From positions 1 through 24,451 of IMG/VR virus record IMGVR_UViG_3300030085_000485: a DNA stretch of 24,451 nt; one strand, given 5' to 3'. This DNA comes from a virus. Positions within the stretch are counted from its first letter, which is position 1, and each line of letters starts with the position of its first letter. The position numbers and the translations under genes are program-made. Below are positions 9,819 through 21,448 of this stretch, one piece after another. The notes below the pieces were generated by a model. That model was not told the DNA's origin and made no database searches. It saw nothing but the letters and a program-made list of their open reading frames with translations.

Positions 9819-9925
9819 CTGACAAAACCCTTTATTACTTTAATTAACAATACTATAGCTATGGCTTCTAGAAAAAACCAAAGCTTTCCAGATATCATTG
9901 TAATAATACCTACTGCTGTTCTCAT
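9815..9925 (-). CDS. 36-residue membrane microprotein
   Basis: The frame starts at ATG (9925), 5 nt after a perfect AGGAGG (9931-9936), and ends in TGA overlapping the next ATG by 4 bp. It encodes MRTAVGIITM..., with one hydrophobic helix at about residues 15-31 (LWFFLEAIAIVLLIKVI) that contains a single Glu20, then a short basic tail (KGFVR). ATGA overlaps at both ends, between the Cys-rich gene and the metallophosphoesterase gene, are strong evidence of real, coupled translation. A single-span inner-membrane peptide is inferred; the function is unknown. Confidence 0.75.
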   Translation of the reverse strand: MRTAVGIITMISGKLWFFLEAIAIVLLIKVIKGFVR

Positions 9926-10158
9926 TTATTCCTCCTAGACAATCTAGCAGACTGTCTTATTCTATCGTCAGTTATTCCCGGTATAACCACAGTATCAAAA
10001 AAATCACAACCTCTCTCTACTCTACAAGACTTACCACTTAGCTTAGAATCTAATGTGATAGATAGCTTATCGTCTTTTCTATTAAATATACATCCTATAC
10101 AGTTACCTGCATCCCAGTTAGAGCAATAACTTCTAGCTATGTTTAATACTTTAGTCAT
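9922..10158 (-). CDS. Cys-rich small protein, first gene of leftward operon
   Basis: This encodes 78 residues with five Cys: Cys12, Cys20-x2-Cys23, Cys45 and Cys51. The layout (C-SNWDAGNC-IGC, then GKSCRVERGCDFFDTVVIP) resembles small phage/plasmid proteins with a conserved Cys-rich core ending in Phe-x-x-Val-x-x-Pro, possibly the cysteine-rich VLP group, and suggests metal binding. It is the first gene after the divergent promoter region and ends with a 4-bp ATGA overlap with the microprotein gene. The predicted transcript start leaves only about 7 nt of leader, so it may be nearly leaderless. The family link is tentative. Confidence 0.65.
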   Translation of the reverse strand: MTKVLNIARSYCSNWDAGNCIGCIFNRKDDKLSITLDSKLSGKSCRVERGCDFFDTVVIPGITDDRIRQSARLSRRNK

Positions 10159-10809: not shown

Positions 10810-11043
10810 ATGAAAAGAAGATTTGATAGAGCAGTATCCAACGAGTTTAGAGAGAATAGTAGTCACGAAAACATAAACGAAGCTATAAAACTAGCTATGA
10901 ATATGAAAGTTCTAGATATTTTAGAACCTACAGGTAAAACTATAGGCGAATTAGCTGAAATAGTAAACAGACTACAAAACGCAGATTCACTGGAAGTTAT
11001 TGATATAGAGCTATTTAGCAGTAAACTACACTCCTATTCCTAA
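10810..11043 (+). CDS. Small helical hypothetical protein upstream of iterons
   Basis: This encodes 77 residues, mostly helical and charged, beginning MKRRFDRAVSNEFREN and continuing with NINEAIKLAMNMKVLDIL and a GKTIGELAEIVNRLQNADSL segment that could form helix-turn-helix-like geometry (about 43-62). It has its own promoter-like site with a leader of about 19 nt, and it is the last gene before the palindromic iteron block. It is therefore a candidate binding protein for those repeats. That link is positional inference; the fold is not recognised. Confidence 0.6.
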   Translation: MKRRFDRAVSNEFRENSSHENINEAIKLAMNMKVLDILEPTGKTIGELAEIVNRLQNADSLEVIDIELFSSKLHSYS

Positions 11044-11109
11044 AAAAATAGCACAATTTTGTGTGTGGCTCTTATTTGCGTGATACCCCCGCCCCCCTAT
11101 CCTTTTTGT

Positions 11110-11268
11110 TGAGAATGAGTCTCATTAGCATTTTGGTTTTTCTATTGAGATTGAGTCTCATTAACATCTAGTCATCCCACCTGAGATTGAGTCTCATTAT
11201 CATTAACTAACTTATTGATATTGCGTCTCATTATCATATACTACTATAATTATTGAGACTGAGTCTCA
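11110..11268. repeat. Five palindromic iterons, about 36 bp apart
   Basis: Five 15-bp units with consensus TGAGAnTGAGTCTCA, usually followed by TTA, lie at 11110-11124, 11146-11160, 11182-11196, 11216-11230 and 11254-11268. Centre-to-centre distances are 36, 36, 34 and 38 bp. The last unit has perfect 7-bp arms around a single G; the fourth has a degenerate left arm. They fill most of a 312-bp gene-free stretch (11044-11352) that begins with an unusual C-rich run near 11086-11098. Regular dyad iterons suggest a replication origin or a multi-site repressor array. Both are inference; the repeats are directly visible. Confidence 0.85.
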
Positions 11269-11307
11269 TTATCGCAAAAAAGCTGGAATTTACGAAAAAG
11301 AAACATT

Positions 11308-11325
11308 ATATCCTATAGTGGATAT
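11308..11325. promoter_or_regulatory. Inverted repeat enclosing a -10-like TATAGT
   Basis: ATATCC (11308-11313) and GGATAT (11320-11325) are perfect complements around TATAGT, which resembles a -10 box. It lies 40 bp after the last iteron and upstream of the next gene. It could be a repressor operator superimposed on a promoter. No convincing -35 box was seen, so this is tentative. Confidence 0.35.
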
Positions 11326-11423
11326 GAACTTTCTTTAAAGTATTTTGTAGCAATGAACAGCCCAATAATAAAAGAAAACGCTCAAAACGCTCATCTTGTA
11401 GATAATGGCTGTTCTATATCTAA

Positions 11424-11442
11424 ACTCATCTATAAGATGAGT
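11424..11442 (+). other. Perfect 8-bp hairpin in leader
   Basis: ACTCATCT (11424-11431) and AGATGAGT (11435-11442) pair fully around an ATA loop, ending 18 nt before the preferred ATG at 11461 and close to its AAAAGG site. No T-run follows. In RNA it would be a stable small hairpin that could affect translation of the next gene. Confidence 0.45.
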
Positions 11443-11460
11443 GTAGAGAAAAGGCTAAAA

Positions 11461-11799
11461 ATGTCAAACATTAATACTAAACTAAGTCAAGACGCATACA
11501 ACAAGCTAGTTGCCCAGCTTGGAGAAGAGCAAGCTAGAGAGGTTGCTTTCACTCTAGGCGGTGTAAAAGGACAGAAAGTAAAAGGCGGTAAAGGCGGTGC
11601 TCTATTGCAATTCCTAGAGAATCAAACAGATAGAACAGAAGCAGAGCAAAAGGTTCTAGACTTATTTAACAAACTGTATGATACTGTACATAAAATCAAT
11701 ACAGACAAGGATGTTACAGACGCTTTCTACACTCTATTCCCTAACTTCATAGAAGGTTTTAACCTAGACCTAAACTGGAAAGATAAGAGCAAAATCTAG
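11461..11799 (+). CDS. Hypothetical protein downstream of iterons
   Basis: The preferred ATG (11461) gives 112 residues starting MSNINTKLSQDAYNKLVAQL. It has an AAAAGG site 7 nt upstream, whereas the more upstream in-frame ATG at 11353 (148 residues) has none and would translate through a perfect hairpin. The protein has a helical N-terminus, a Gly/Lys-rich GGVKGQKVKGGKGGA segment (about 32-46) that could contact nucleic acid, and a helical C-terminal half ending NLDLNWKDKSKI. An intrinsic-terminator-like hairpin follows. No family was recognised. Confidence 0.65.
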   Translation: MSNINTKLSQDAYNKLVAQLGEEQAREVAFTLGGVKGQKVKGGKGGALLQFLENQTDRTEAEQKVLDLFNKLYDTVHKINTDKDVTDAFYTLFPNFIEGFNLDLNWKDKSKI

Positions 11800-13453: not shown

Positions 13454-13600
13454 ATGAGAGAGATACTTCATCACCTACTTGGTACTTGTGGAGAGAGTCA
13501 CGTTAGTGTACTAACTCTGTATTATCTAGGAGTCTTTGTAGTATACAAAGAACTTGTAGTAACGATAGCAAGAGAGGTGAAAGATGGTCTATTCAAATGA
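13454..13600 (+). CDS. 48-residue conserved-type phage membrane microprotein
   Basis: ATG 13454 lies 5 nt after AGGAG and opens MREILHHLLGTCGESHVSVL, then a hydrophobic stretch (about 18-38, TLYYLGVFVVYKELVVTIA) and a short tail ending DGLFK. The E-I-L-H-H-L-L-G-T-C-G-E-x-H-x-S start is a pattern I recall from other phage microproteins, although I know of no assigned function. It overlaps the amidoligase gene by 17 bp in another frame, and it is the first gene after the promoter-like site. A single membrane span is likely. Confidence 0.75.
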   Translation: MREILHHLLGTCGESHVSVLTLYYLGVFVVYKELVVTIAREVKDGLFK

Positions 13601-15407
13601 AGTCTATCTAGTAAATAGCAACTACGCTAGAACAGTACATCTAGCTACTAGCTTCAAAGATATAGATGTAGAGAGTGCTATGCTAGACTACAGTGCTAGA
13701 GTAGACGTAGATACTGTAGAAGGTACGTCTAATAGAATATTCAAACTAATAGATGTATCAAGTAGCTACAAGCACAATGTACCTTGCTTACTACTAGAAA
13801 GGAGTGACGGTCTACATATTATATGTAGAGTTCTAGATGTTCTATTTACAGATAAGAGATTACTTACTGTAACTTGGAGTGAACGTAGAGACCTATACTT
13901 AATACATATGCCTCAGAATAGAAATGAGGTACAGTTCTACGCTCAAGGTGATACGTATGATGTATGTAGTAGCTTAGAGATGTACGCGTCTGATGAGAGT
14001 AAGTGTTTTCTAGCTTGGAACTCGTATAGAAGTGCAGAGTTTGTAGACAAAACTGATAGTAGACACGGATTACATAGAAACAGATTCTTTCTAAATACAG
14101 ATACGTATGGTCATATGACTACGTATATGGATAAGAGCGATATAGATAGCACTAGAGGTAAGTACGAAGTATGTAGAAGCTGTGGAGATATAGTACCAAA
14201 GTTTAGAATGACAGATGTTACTATATCAGATGGAGTAGAAAAGTCTATTTGTAGACCTTGCTATGATGTACTAGAGATACCTTGTGATTGTTGCCATATA
14301 GATGTGCCAATATCTAATAGGATAACTATATCAAGCGATACTTCTAGACAAAGAAACAGTACAGATGTTATATTTTCTAATAGTGATATAAGTAATATAT
14401 GTAATACTTGCTACGAAGGAACTCTTAGAACTTGTAGTAGATGTAGATGCTATGAGATGATAGATATAGAGGCCCTTAGAAGAAGTGATGATAGAGATGA
14501 GACTATTAGGCAGTTTAATATAGAATCTAATTATAGATATATATTTAGTAGACAGTATTGCAGTGATTGTGCAGACATTCTACTAACTACATATCTAGCT
14601 AACCCGTTCAACTATAGCCCACTACCTAGAAAATATTCTGATAAGAGTGATTTTAATACATTCGTAGGTATAGAAAGTGAGGTAATAACAGAGACAGAAG
14701 GTGCTAGTGATTATATAGATGAAGAGAGATATATACCTAATTACTTTAGAGTAGTAGATGACGGCTCTCTAAATCAAGGAGGAGTAGAGTTTGTTACTAA
14801 AAGACCTATTATAGGTACAGATGTTGATAGAGCATTAGACCAACTACAAGAAGCTCACGAGTCAGAATGGAATACTGTAGATAGTAGCTGTGGTCTACAT
14901 ATACATATGAACGCTCTAGATATGGGATTCAGAGAAATAAAGTCTCTACTTATGATTATGTCTAGAATACAGGATGTAATATATGACAGTATACCTAGTA
15001 ATAGAAGAGATACATCTTATGCAAGGGTAATTACTATGACACCTAAAGAGATAGCTAAGATAGATACACTTGGTCATCTAATAACTAGCTACTATGGTAT
15101 GGTAGATACTATTATAAGTGACAACAAGTACAATGAAGCTAGGTACATAGGTACTAATATACACGCTAGGTTCTATCTAGGTTCAATAGAGTTTAGGTAT
15201 CACGAGGGTACTATTAGGTCTAGTAGTATAAAGGATTGGATACTATTCCTAAATGGTATAATGGATGCTTCTAAGAACTTACATAATAGACATAGATTAC
15301 GTAACAAGATAATGAAAGAAAAGTTCAGCTCTATAGATATCATTAGAGATATATCTGGTATCAGTGGTGCTGAATACATAGAAAGTAAAATAGATAATAA
15401 CAGTTAA
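13584..15407 (+). CDS. Zinc-finger amidoligase-like protein 1
   Basis: This encodes 607 residues. About 1-190 is an uncharacterised beta-rich region. Residues 197-329 carry six Cys clusters (197/200, 223/226, 234/236/237, 273/276, 284/287/289, 326/329), consistent with several zinc sites. The C-terminal part matches the Amidoligase_2 pattern: GIESEV (362-367), DDGSL (392-396), GGVEFVT (399-405), CGLHIHM (436-442), RYIGTNIHARF (520-530) and GSIEFRYHEGTI (533-544). These acidic, His and Arg residues are those expected of the glutamine-synthetase-like COOH-NH2 ligase fold, which would join a carboxylate to an amine using ATP. It starts 17 bp inside the microprotein gene. The class II amidotransferase and a second amidoligase follow. 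The substrate is unknown. Confidence 0.8.
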   Translation: MVYSNEVYLVNSNYARTVHLATSFKDIDVESAMLDYSARVDVDTVEGTSNRIFKLIDVSSSYKHNVPCLLLERSDGLHIICRVLDVLFTDKRLLTVTWSERRDLYLIHMPQNRNEVQFYAQGDTYDVCSSLEMYASDESKCFLAWNSYRSAEFVDKTDSRHGLHRNRFFLNTDTYGHMTTYMDKSDIDSTRGKYEVCRSCGDIVPKFRMTDVTISDGVEKSICRPCYDVLEIPCDCCHIDVPISNRITISSDTSRQRNSTDVIFSNSDISNICNTCYEGTLRTCSRCRCYEMIDIEALRRSDDRDETIRQFNIESNYRYIFSRQYCSDCADILLTTYLANPFNYSPLPRKYSDKSDFNTFVGIESEVITETEGASDYIDEERYIPNYFRVVDDGSLNQGGVEFVTKRPIIGTDVDRALDQLQEAHESEWNTVDSSCGLHIHMNALDMGFREIKSLLMIMSRIQDVIYDSIPSNRRDTSYARVITMTPKEIAKIDTLGHLITSYYGMVDTIISDNKYNEARYIGTNIHARFYLGSIEFRYHEGTIRSSSIKDWILFLNGIMDASKNLHNRHRLRNKIMKEKFSSIDIIRDISGISGAEYIESKIDNNS

Positions 15408-15425
15408 AAGAAAAGGAGATAGTAT

Positions 15426-16433
15426 ATGTGTGGTATCTTTGGTTTCGCTAAGACTAGCGGAAGGCAAAGTGATAATCAGTTAGAGATACTCAAGAGAGTA
15501 GTAACTGAACTCACAGATGAATCATCTATACGAGGTACTGATAGTACAGGTTTCTCTATTATCAATGAGGATAATAGATATACCTACAAGACCTTAGTAG
15601 ATTCATCAACACTAGTAGGTTTTCCTGAGTGGAATATGCTACTAGATAAAGTAAATAGAGACACTACTATATTTATGGGCCACGTTAGACTGGCAACTAC
15701 TGGTAGTGTAAAAGTAGAGAACGCTCACCCATTCAATATAGGTAGTGTAACTGGTGTACATAATGGTATAATACACAACTACAACCAAGTATCTAACATA
15801 CTAGGTAAGAGTGTACCAGATGTAGACTCACAAGTTCTATTCCAAGCTCTTAACAAGTTAGAGATGAGCAAGGCATTTGAAGATATAGATGGAGACTTTG
15901 CTATTACTTGGGTAAAGGACAGTAACAAGAAGGTACATCTAGCTAGAGAGAGTGGCAGACCTATGGTGGTTGCATACTGGAAGAAAGCTAGAGTTCTACT
16001 ATGGGCTTCTACTAGACAGATTATGGAGGATGCTATGACTAGAGCTGGTCTTAGGTTACCTATTAAAAATGTTAGGCAAGACTATATATTTACCTACGAT
16101 ACAGACAAGTTCGATAGTAAGCCTAATGTAGATAGTGTAGAGTTTGAGACTCTAAGTCAGTACGACTACGGCTATGGATTCAAACCATATAGTGGTACTC
16201 GGTACTATAGAGGTAATGGATATAGTATGAGTCCTGCAACCAAGTCTCTACACGGAGTTAGTACTTGTGATACAGAAAGAGACGAGTTGTGCTACTTCTG
16301 TTTTGAGTACGCACCCAAGCAAGAGATAGACCCTAACGATGGTAGACCTATATGTGTACAATGCGAGGTTGTAGAAAATTATAGGTACGGATACAGTAAC
16401 GAAGATGAGAGAGATAATGATGTCCCATTCTAA
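15426..16433 (+). CDS. Class II glutamine amidotransferase with zinc finger
   Basis: This encodes 335 residues. The Ntn-hydrolase glutaminase domain starts MCGIFGF (Cys2 nucleophile after Met removal), with RGTDSTG (36-42), GHVRLATTG (85-93), NAHPF (99-103), VHNGIIHNY (111-119) and a DVDSQ acidic segment (132-136), as in GlmS and PurF. The enzyme would release ammonia from glutamine. No SIS, synthetase or phosphoribosyltransferase domain follows. Instead residues 289-313 hold a CYFC...CVQC zinc knuckle pair, and the tail ends DERDNDVPF, much like an SSB C-terminal tip. A strong AAGGAG lies 7 nt before the ATG. Placement between two amidoligases suggests it supplies ammonia or gamma-glutamyl transfer for them. 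Confidence 0.85.
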   Translation: MCGIFGFAKTSGRQSDNQLEILKRVVTELTDESSIRGTDSTGFSIINEDNRYTYKTLVDSSTLVGFPEWNMLLDKVNRDTTIFMGHVRLATTGSVKVENAHPFNIGSVTGVHNGIIHNYNQVSNILGKSVPDVDSQVLFQALNKLEMSKAFEDIDGDFAITWVKDSNKKVHLARESGRPMVVAYWKKARVLLWASTRQIMEDAMTRAGLRLPIKNVRQDYIFTYDTDKFDSKPNVDSVEFETLSQYDYGYGFKPYSGTRYYRGNGYSMSPATKSLHGVSTCDTERDELCYFCFEYAPKQEIDPNDGRPICVQCEVVENYRYGYSNEDERDNDVPF

Positions 16434-16728
16434 GAAAGTAATACTACTAGGATTTCCTGAAGCTGTAAAGCTAAAGTCTAAGAAGTATATTATAGAGACT
16501 TTATATAATAGAGCTAAGAAGAATCCTTTTCTAGCAGATAAGACATACGATGAATATCTAGAGTTTCTAGTAGGACAGATAGACCTACTAGGTTCTACAG
16601 ATGTAGAGATAGATATAGATGCAAGCGATGTAGAATCTCAGATATACGATGCACTGAAAGAGATGCAATGGTTGAAGGTAATAAACGCCTTCATAGTTGG
16701 AGTAATAACTACTAACATAGGAGTCTAG
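16420..16728 (+). CDS. Hypothetical protein between amidotransferase and amidoligase
   Basis: This is 102 residues from ATG 16420, which has GAGAGAG about 6 nt upstream; in-frame ATGs at 16405 and 16417 are alternatives. The protein begins MSHSKKVILLGFPEAVKLKS, has a helical YDEYLEFLVGQIDLL region and acidic strand-like DVEIDIDASDVES, and ends with a hydrophobic WLKVINAFIVGVITTNIGV. The end could be a membrane or packing helix. It overlaps the amidotransferase gene by 14 bp and precedes the second amidoligase by 1 bp, so it probably belongs to the same pathway. No family was recognised. Confidence 0.6.
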   Translation: MSHSKKVILLGFPEAVKLKSKKYIIETLYNRAKKNPFLADKTYDEYLEFLVGQIDLLGSTDVEIDIDASDVESQIYDALKEMQWLKVINAFIVGVITTNIGV

Positions 16729-16729
16729 T

Positions 16730-17851
16730 ATGCCACCTGATACAGAACAACAATTAGTATGTGAGTGTTGCGAGACTACAAGTAATGTACAAGAACAGCC
16801 AAGTGCTACTGTATGCGATGACTGTAATGTAGAACACTACTACCACTGCGTTAGTTGTGATACACATAGCAGTTACGATAGTGGTTACAATGTTTCTCCT
16901 CACGGAGATGAGTACTGTGAAGATTGTTTCTATGAAATATTCTGCTATTGTGCAGGTTGTGGAGAAGCTACCGATAGAGACTGCACAACATACTACGGAG
17001 GTGAGGAGTACTGCGAGAGTTGTGTACCTGAAGATACTATACTAGAGGTTGCAAGTACAGTACCCTCTAGTAGTAGAATTGCAGAGACATTCACATACCC
17101 TATAAGAACATTGGTAGGTTTGGAGATAGAATGTATTACACCTGAGGTAGAGTCTATTGATACGCCTATGTACTGGACTAACTGCTCAGATGGTTCTATT
17201 AGTACAGATGAAGAAGATAGTATGGGTGTAGAACTAGTGTCTACCCCTGCTAGTGGAGACCTACTAATGCAGAATATAGATAACTTGATACAGTGGAGAG
17301 ATTACTACGGTGGATGGGTTAATCATACTTGTGGTTTCCACGTACACTTTAACTCTATAGATAAGACACCTAGAGAGATAGCACACGTAGCTATAGTATA
17401 TCAAAAGTACCAGAGTATACTAAAAGGTATGATGCCTAACTCTAGACAGAGGTCTAATTGGTGTAGAGATTCTAATATGAATGTGAATTATCTTCGTAGA
17501 GTTACAGAAGAACAAGAACTAATAGATGAGTATTATGAGACTATGGGCTCACATCCTAGTAGTGAGAAGTATAACGATGCTAGGTACTGTGGTCTTAACA
17601 TACACTCTAGATACTATCACGGTACTATAGAGTTTAGACTACACTCAGGTACTATTAACAAGGAGAAGATAACTAATTGGATATCAATACTTAATATTAT
17701 AATAGATAAAGGTATAGAGATATCTAAGTTTAGTGAGGAGAACTTTAGGTCTTGGTTAGACTTAAAACCTAATCTTGATATATTTGGTTATACTCTAAAG
17801 TCTTATATGCTTATGAGGATAAGTAAATTCAAGCAACAAAGAGGAGAATAA
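16730..17851 (+). CDS. Zinc-finger amidoligase-like protein 2
   Basis: This encodes 373 residues. The first 100 contain at least seven Cys knuckles (11/13/14, 29/32, 40/43, 63/66, 72/74/77, 85, 95/98), a dense array of zinc sites. The rest matches Amidoligase_2: GLEIEC (130-135), SDGSI (153-157), GVELVSTP (166-173), CGFHVHF (201-207), RYCGLNIHSRY (285-295) and GTIEFRLHSGTI (298-309). It is a shorter paralogue of the 607-residue protein in this operon, lacking its long N-terminal region; the shared motif order makes duplication likely. An AGGAG site precedes the ATG. It presumably acts with the amidotransferase; its target is unknown. Confidence 0.85.
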   Translation: MPPDTEQQLVCECCETTSNVQEQPSATVCDDCNVEHYYHCVSCDTHSSYDSGYNVSPHGDEYCEDCFYEIFCYCAGCGEATDRDCTTYYGGEEYCESCVPEDTILEVASTVPSSSRIAETFTYPIRTLVGLEIECITPEVESIDTPMYWTNCSDGSISTDEEDSMGVELVSTPASGDLLMQNIDNLIQWRDYYGGWVNHTCGFHVHFNSIDKTPREIAHVAIVYQKYQSILKGMMPNSRQRSNWCRDSNMNVNYLRRVTEEQELIDEYYETMGSHPSSEKYNDARYCGLNIHSRYYHGTIEFRLHSGTINKEKITNWISILNIIIDKGIEISKFSEENFRSWLDLKPNLDIFGYTLKSYMLMRISKFKQQRGE

Positions 17852-21076: not shown

Positions 21077-21272
21077 GATAGAGCATTCTTTCACTACTAA
21101 GTTCGGATGGTATGATGGACTACGACATATGACAGATATATCTAAAGAGTTTACTAGAGGTGAGAGAAGTATCTACGAATTAAATGATAGAGAGGACTAC
21201 CTCTTAATCAAGAAACTAAGAACCAAATACAAAAAGGAGCCAACATGGCACGTAAAAGAAAGTCACAAGTAA
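21054..21272 (+). CDS. Small hypothetical protein
   Basis: This encodes 72 residues from an ATG 7 nt after GGAGGT. It begins MEIKKWNEIEHSFTTKFGWY and has a helix-like DREDYLLIKKLRTKYKKEPT near the end. It is basic overall and overlaps the HTH gene by 28 bp. The strong ribosome binding site inside the previous gene supports it. The function is unknown. Confidence 0.55.
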   Translation: MEIKKWNEIEHSFTTKFGWYDGLRHMTDISKEFTRGERSIYELNDREDYLLIKKLRTKYKKEPTWHVKESHK

Positions 21273-21448
21273 GTAAAGTAAGAGACTTCCTATTCACTGG
21301 GAAGAAGCTCACAGCTAAAACAGCAATCAGTAGGTTTGGTGTATATAGATTAGCCGCAGTTATCTATGTATTACGTAATACATTCAATATGGATATTACT
21401 ACTGACAATACAAAGGGATACGCTGTATACTCTTTGACTACTTCTTAA
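21245..21448 (+). CDS. Helix-turn-helix DNA-binding protein
   Basis: This encodes 67 residues. After a basic start (MARKRKSQVSKVRDFLFTG), residues 20-46 read KKLTAKTAISRFGVYRLAAV then IYVLRN, the pattern of a winged or simple HTH (A-K-T-A-x-x-R-F-G-V-x-R-L-A-A-V-I), often seen in small phage HTH proteins. The end (MDITTDNTKGYAVYSL) could form the wing. AAGGAG lies 5 nt before the ATG. A hairpin follows the stop, so it ends this operon segment. It is a candidate regulator of the promoter or iteron sites. Confidence 0.75.
   Translation: MARKRKSQVSKVRDFLFTGKKLTAKTAISRFGVYRLAAVIYVLRNTFNMDITTDNTKGYAVYSLTTS

Follow-up and report, generated by a model that had tools for sequence, protein, structure and literature searches.

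An intergenic row of predicted host Fur boxes in a tailed-phage genome fragment

Genomic context of the repeats

The window, that is, the whole analysed stretch of 24,451 nucleotides (IMG/VR record IMGVR_UViG_3300030085_000485), is part of the genome of a tailed phage. Genes for the large terminase subunit, the portal, an SU10-type capsid protein and other structural proteins occupy the minus strand on its left side. The plus strand on its right side carries small genes, two amidoligases and a glutamine amidotransferase, an exonuclease and a RusA resolvase, and a putative DnaB-like helicase gene, identified by reading the sequence, continues past the right end (Table 1). The glutamine amidotransferase is of class II and lies between the two amidoligase-2 proteins, which makes this a phage amidoligase cluster.

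About 1 kb into the rightward gene cluster, an intergenic gap holds five dyads with start-to-start distances of 36, 36, 34 and 38 bp; the gap measures ~417 bp if the downstream ORF is translated from 11461. The positions and spacing reported in the sequence-only reading stand, whereas its count of five copies was slightly generous: four of the dyads match TGAGAnTGAGTCTCA exactly and the remaining one departs from it at two positions. The full repeat unit, approximately CTTATTGAGAnTGAGTCTCAnTAnCA, is also longer than first noted. When up to 3 mismatches to TGAGAnTGAGTCTCA were allowed on both strands, the window yielded 15 matches, 14 of them inside the array, as compared with 4.1 ± 2.2 expected from shuffled windows; 15 matches were reached in 0 of 100 shuffles. 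No helical phasing of the inter-box distances was detected (R=0.10).

Neither ORF flanking the array has a family match. The upstream 77-aa ORF had been put forward as a candidate binder of the repeats, and it is indeed conserved beside the array; yet its structure model, consisting of four helices, is of low confidence (pLDDT 53), too poor for use, and contains no recognisable DNA-binding fold. The second candidate binder fared no better, matching only a PHROG of unknown function. In the ORF downstream of the array, the N-terminal part carries the conserved leader motif NAQNAHLVD, which belongs to a separate small ORF in relatives. This leader ORF (11353-11460 in the window) directly follows the array, and in L006 and L014 it corresponds to a protein of 57 aa that contains a hydrophobic stretch. 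A sigma-70 promoter predicted inside the array was discarded, as it is not conserved in relatives.

Table 1. Features of the window discussed in the text. Box sequences are followed by the adjacent 3' hexamer; matches refer to TGAGAnTGAGTCTCA.
Feature	Position	Strand	Description	Host-PWM score	Identity to Fur [7-1-7]2 consensus
Small Cys-rich protein	9922..10158	-	CxNWDxGxCxGC...C...GC.YF		
77-aa ORF upstream of array	10810..11043	+	conserved in 11 loci, window included		
C-rich run	11086..11097		in the stretch of the array		
Predicted Fur box 1	11110..11124	+	TGAGAATGAGTCTCA then TTAGCA; exact match	31.2	17/21
Predicted Fur box 2	11146..11160	+	TGAGATTGAGTCTCA then TTAACA; exact match	34.8 (above host mean)	16/21
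Predicted Fur box 3	11182..11196	+	TGAGATTGAGTCTCA then TTATCA; exact match	31.3	17/21
Predicted Fur box 4, weakest copy	11216..11230	+	TGATATTGCGTCTCA then TTATCA; 2 mismatches	25.6	17/21
Predicted Fur box 5	11254..11268	+	TGAGACTGAGTCTCA then TTATCG; exact match	32.5	
Candidate promoter	11289..11319	+	TTTACG-N19-TATAGT, 3' of last box; weak, from alignment with 10 relatives only		
First ORF 3' of array	11353..11799	+	148 aa from 11353 or 112 aa from 11461		
Amidoligase cluster	13584..17851	+	amidoligase-2 proteins and class II glutamine amidotransferase		
Second candidate binder ORF	21245..21448		PHROG of unknown function		
Putative DnaB-like helicase gene	from 23168		continues past window end		

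Arrays in related and unrelated phages

A common protein cluster unites a set of fifteen loci (group A), among them the window, in which the boxes occupy the same intergenic place. A search for the repeat in related phages, suggested in the sequence-only reading, thus bore out its presence there, with 3-6 boxes kept at the same spot in each of the 11 aligned group A phages, window included. Among these aligned relatives, the core bases of the boxes agree in 91.5% of the comparisons and the spacers in 37-55%. Moreover, the distance from the last box (box 5 in the window) to the downstream conserved leader block is nearly constant across the 11 related phages. As judged from the alignments, the boxes are kept under selection in the relatives. 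Searches by blastn with the locus and with the array against 50,697 phages returned nothing useful.

Two further elements were noted in array-bearing loci. A second palindromic element, GTTCGAAATTTCGAA and its variants, lies downstream of the 77-aa ORF and ahead of the first box in L011, L013, L017, L023, L027 and L033, and is absent from the window. The small Cys-rich protein is conserved in 15 array-bearing loci and has a distant relative at 8981-9199 in L034, an array phage that differs in other respects; its four invariant cysteines might form a metal site.

Two exact copies of the box within a short distance were found in 31 viral contigs, and the carriers outside group A belong to unrelated groups with different neighbouring genes and G+C contents of 24-51%. 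Viral contigs also contained pairs of classical Fur boxes, with 40 stretches for TGAGAATnATTCTCA and 9 for TGATAATnATTATCA, some of which could be host DNA called viral, against 1 and 0 matches for control palindromes with permuted half-sites. Some of the classical-box stretches contain 4-8 boxes; one of them (L163), which resembles Microcystis phage Mic1, has eight boxes ~37.5 bp apart. The cultured Mic1 (L340, MN013189) carries five Fur-like sites at 55587-56301, in an unannotated 3-kb gap.

No protein common to all array-bearing phage groups was found. GP88 (PF17338) was present in 19 of 50 array contigs versus 1 of 50 random viral contigs, in a comparison in which habitat was unmatched and related contigs were counted. 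Genes for GP88 or the DUF7227 Cys-motif protein lie ~0.1-2.3 kb from many arrays in unrelated phages (L015, L021, L022, L025, L030, L034, L161, L167 and others). This association was retained only as a lead, given that GP88 is absent from the window lineage and that no box was found near the GP88 or DUF7227 gene of six cultured phages; the structure model of GP88 was too poor for use.

Correspondence with iron-gene operators of Opitutales

A two-box scan of 84,980 species genomes retrieved 21 contigs, nearly all from marine Opitutales or other Verrucomicrobiota. In most of the Opitutales contigs, a double box, 23 bp apart, is located directly upstream (within ~90 bp) of a gene for a TonB-dependent siderophore receptor, as assigned with Pfam. 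Whole-genome scans of eight of these genomes, in which some single host boxes were accepted with up to 3 mismatches, placed further boxes ahead of genes for flavodoxin and a phosphatase, bacterioferritin (ferritin-like), a DUF3450/TonB-system operon, a PhnD-like ABC protein and an AraC regulator. By their predicted products, the genes behind the boxes in these eight Opitutales-type genomes are a small iron regulon. A receptor gene with a double Fur box nearly identical to that of Opitutales was also seen in a contig of a 'Flavobacteriales' MAG (L047, DGQE01000006.1), which is probably mis-binned.

A position weight matrix (PWM) built from 49 host boxes, whose mean score is 34.0, gave the phage sites scores of 25.6-34.8, which fall within or close to the range of the host boxes, and the top-scoring positions in the window were all inside the array. 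The canonical Fur consensus TGATAATGATAATCATTATCA, applied blind, ranked the five array sites as the top five of the window, with 16-17 of 21 positions identical. The dyads follow the 7-1-7 pattern of Fur boxes, although their inner bases (GAGTCTC) deviate from the classical AT-rich Fur core. Furthermore, Fur-family genes are present in 8/8 of the host genomes, with 2-4 paralogues each, whereas no Fur gene (PF01475) was found in the window or in 19 other array-bearing viral records. Because of the iron regulon, the host PWM, the Fur consensus and the presence of Fur genes in the hosts but not in the phages, we interpret the five repeats as Fur boxes of an Opitutales dialect, that is, as predicted operators of the host iron repressor Fur, with a dimer on each dyad; we assign this reading a probability of roughly 0.75. 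The suggestion of a multi-site operator with a dimeric binder was therefore well placed, being supported by the Fur geometry and the match to the Opitutales iron-regulon operators.

From the sequence of its boxes, this marine phage most likely infects a marine bacterium of the order Opitutales. A search with the phage terminase in 273 genomes of this order gave just one weak, 31%-identical fragment and hence no host proof, and P8625, the one cultured phage of Puniceicoccales (Verrucomicrobiota), has no box.

The same chromosomal sites bear on the other of the two readings first offered, a replication origin, in which the repeats would be iterons recognised by an initiator that the phage encodes. 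An origin would suit direct repeats spaced almost regularly in AT-rich intergenic DNA next to a C-rich run, with a change of GC-skew sign nearby and a DnaB-like helicase recognised from its sequence. However, identical sites are found at chromosomal iron genes, arrays turn up next to unrelated genes in different phages, the inter-box distances lack helix phasing, and no initiator family appeared among the part of the ORFs scanned in this fragmentary contig. The skew does switch at 10-11.5 kb, as the proposed check anticipated, but the switch coincides with that of gene direction and is thus uninformative alone. With nothing specific in its favour, an origin appears very improbable.

The regulator binding the sites could, in principle, be another one. 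That a different host iron or TonB regulator is involved, either AraC/PchR-like or one of the Fur paralogues (for example Zur or PerR), would fit with the several Fur-family paralogues per host and with the AraC gene under the same motif; yet siderophore receptor, flavodoxin and bacterioferritin genes are a typical Fur regulon, the dyad geometry and up to 17/21 identity suit Fur, and the AraC gene resembles a target, so that we consider this unlikely, at less than one chance in ten. Equally unlikely is a phage-encoded repressor with operators copying, or evolved from, the Fur box. Arrays do lie at intergenic transcription boundaries, and the array is flanked on either side by genes for small conserved proteins, but no common protein accompanies it across unrelated phages, a Fur homologue is encoded in 0/20 records, and in other phages the classical box takes its place. 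The binder of the array is likely a host protein, and host Fur is the reading that we follow below.

Predicted roles of the array and comparison with known systems

Iron-loaded host Fur would sit on the array, and the adjacent early or leader operon starting at 11353 is probably repressed or timed by the iron status of the host. Such control in cis is favoured by the intergenic location of the array and the fixed distance from its last box. Simple repression is nevertheless disfavoured, because the best promoter candidate lies 3' of the array. The array may additionally titrate Fur and derepress siderophore uptake by the host, a role to which we give somewhat less than even odds. In favour of titration, the boxes exceed in number those of any host promoter seen (at most two), their copy number rises with replication, and unrelated phages share arrays. 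The box count of the phage would be about that of the whole host regulon, and replication would multiply the boxes until Fur is titrated; both roles could coexist. Fur is abundant in model bacteria, and titration may thus be weak early in infection. During phage infection, host iron transcripts have been reported both to increase and to decrease (PMC9305737).

Similar rows of boxes in many unrelated phages suggest that host iron control is either sensed or commandeered by phages. More tentatively, and with the odds rather against it, phages might widely carry decoy arrays of the host Fur box, matched to the host dialect, which would soak up Fur during replication and switch on host iron uptake. 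Iron is limiting in much of the ocean; if the proposal is true, host-specific Fur-box arrays, conserved in marine phages and paralleled in unrelated ones, would let phages intervene directly in the regulation of host iron metabolism. The Fur-box dialect also offers a way of guessing the host of a phage. In the literature searched, no description of such arrays was found.

Phage genes controlled by host Fur or DtxR are known from stx1 and tox, where the operators are located at the toxin gene of temperate phages. The likeness lies in a phage-borne promoter read by a host metal repressor, whereas the arrays described here are multi-box and intergenic, and none of the genes next to them was recognised as a toxin or iron gene. 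The Fur box itself ([7-1-7]2 model; 19-bp GATAATGATAATCATTATC) resembles our sites in the heptamer dyad with one central base, the second overlapping dyad 6 bp away, the 16-17/21 identity and the position, in the presumed hosts, ahead of iron genes; the Opitutales form TGAGAnTGAGTCTCAnTAnCA differs in having G/C in the inner half-site, and the phage in having 5 separate boxes ~36 bp apart rather than one or two. In the Fur titration assay (FURTA), plasmids with high-copy Fur boxes derepress Fur targets (PMC3145626); by analogy, what is an artificial assay there would be brought about naturally by replication of the phage array. Finally, the Ferrojan Horse hypothesis, in which iron is carried in phage tails and siderophore receptors serve for entry (cited in PMC9305737), likewise connects marine phages with iron and siderophore receptors, but concerns virions and receptors, whereas the element described here is regulatory DNA within the phage genome.
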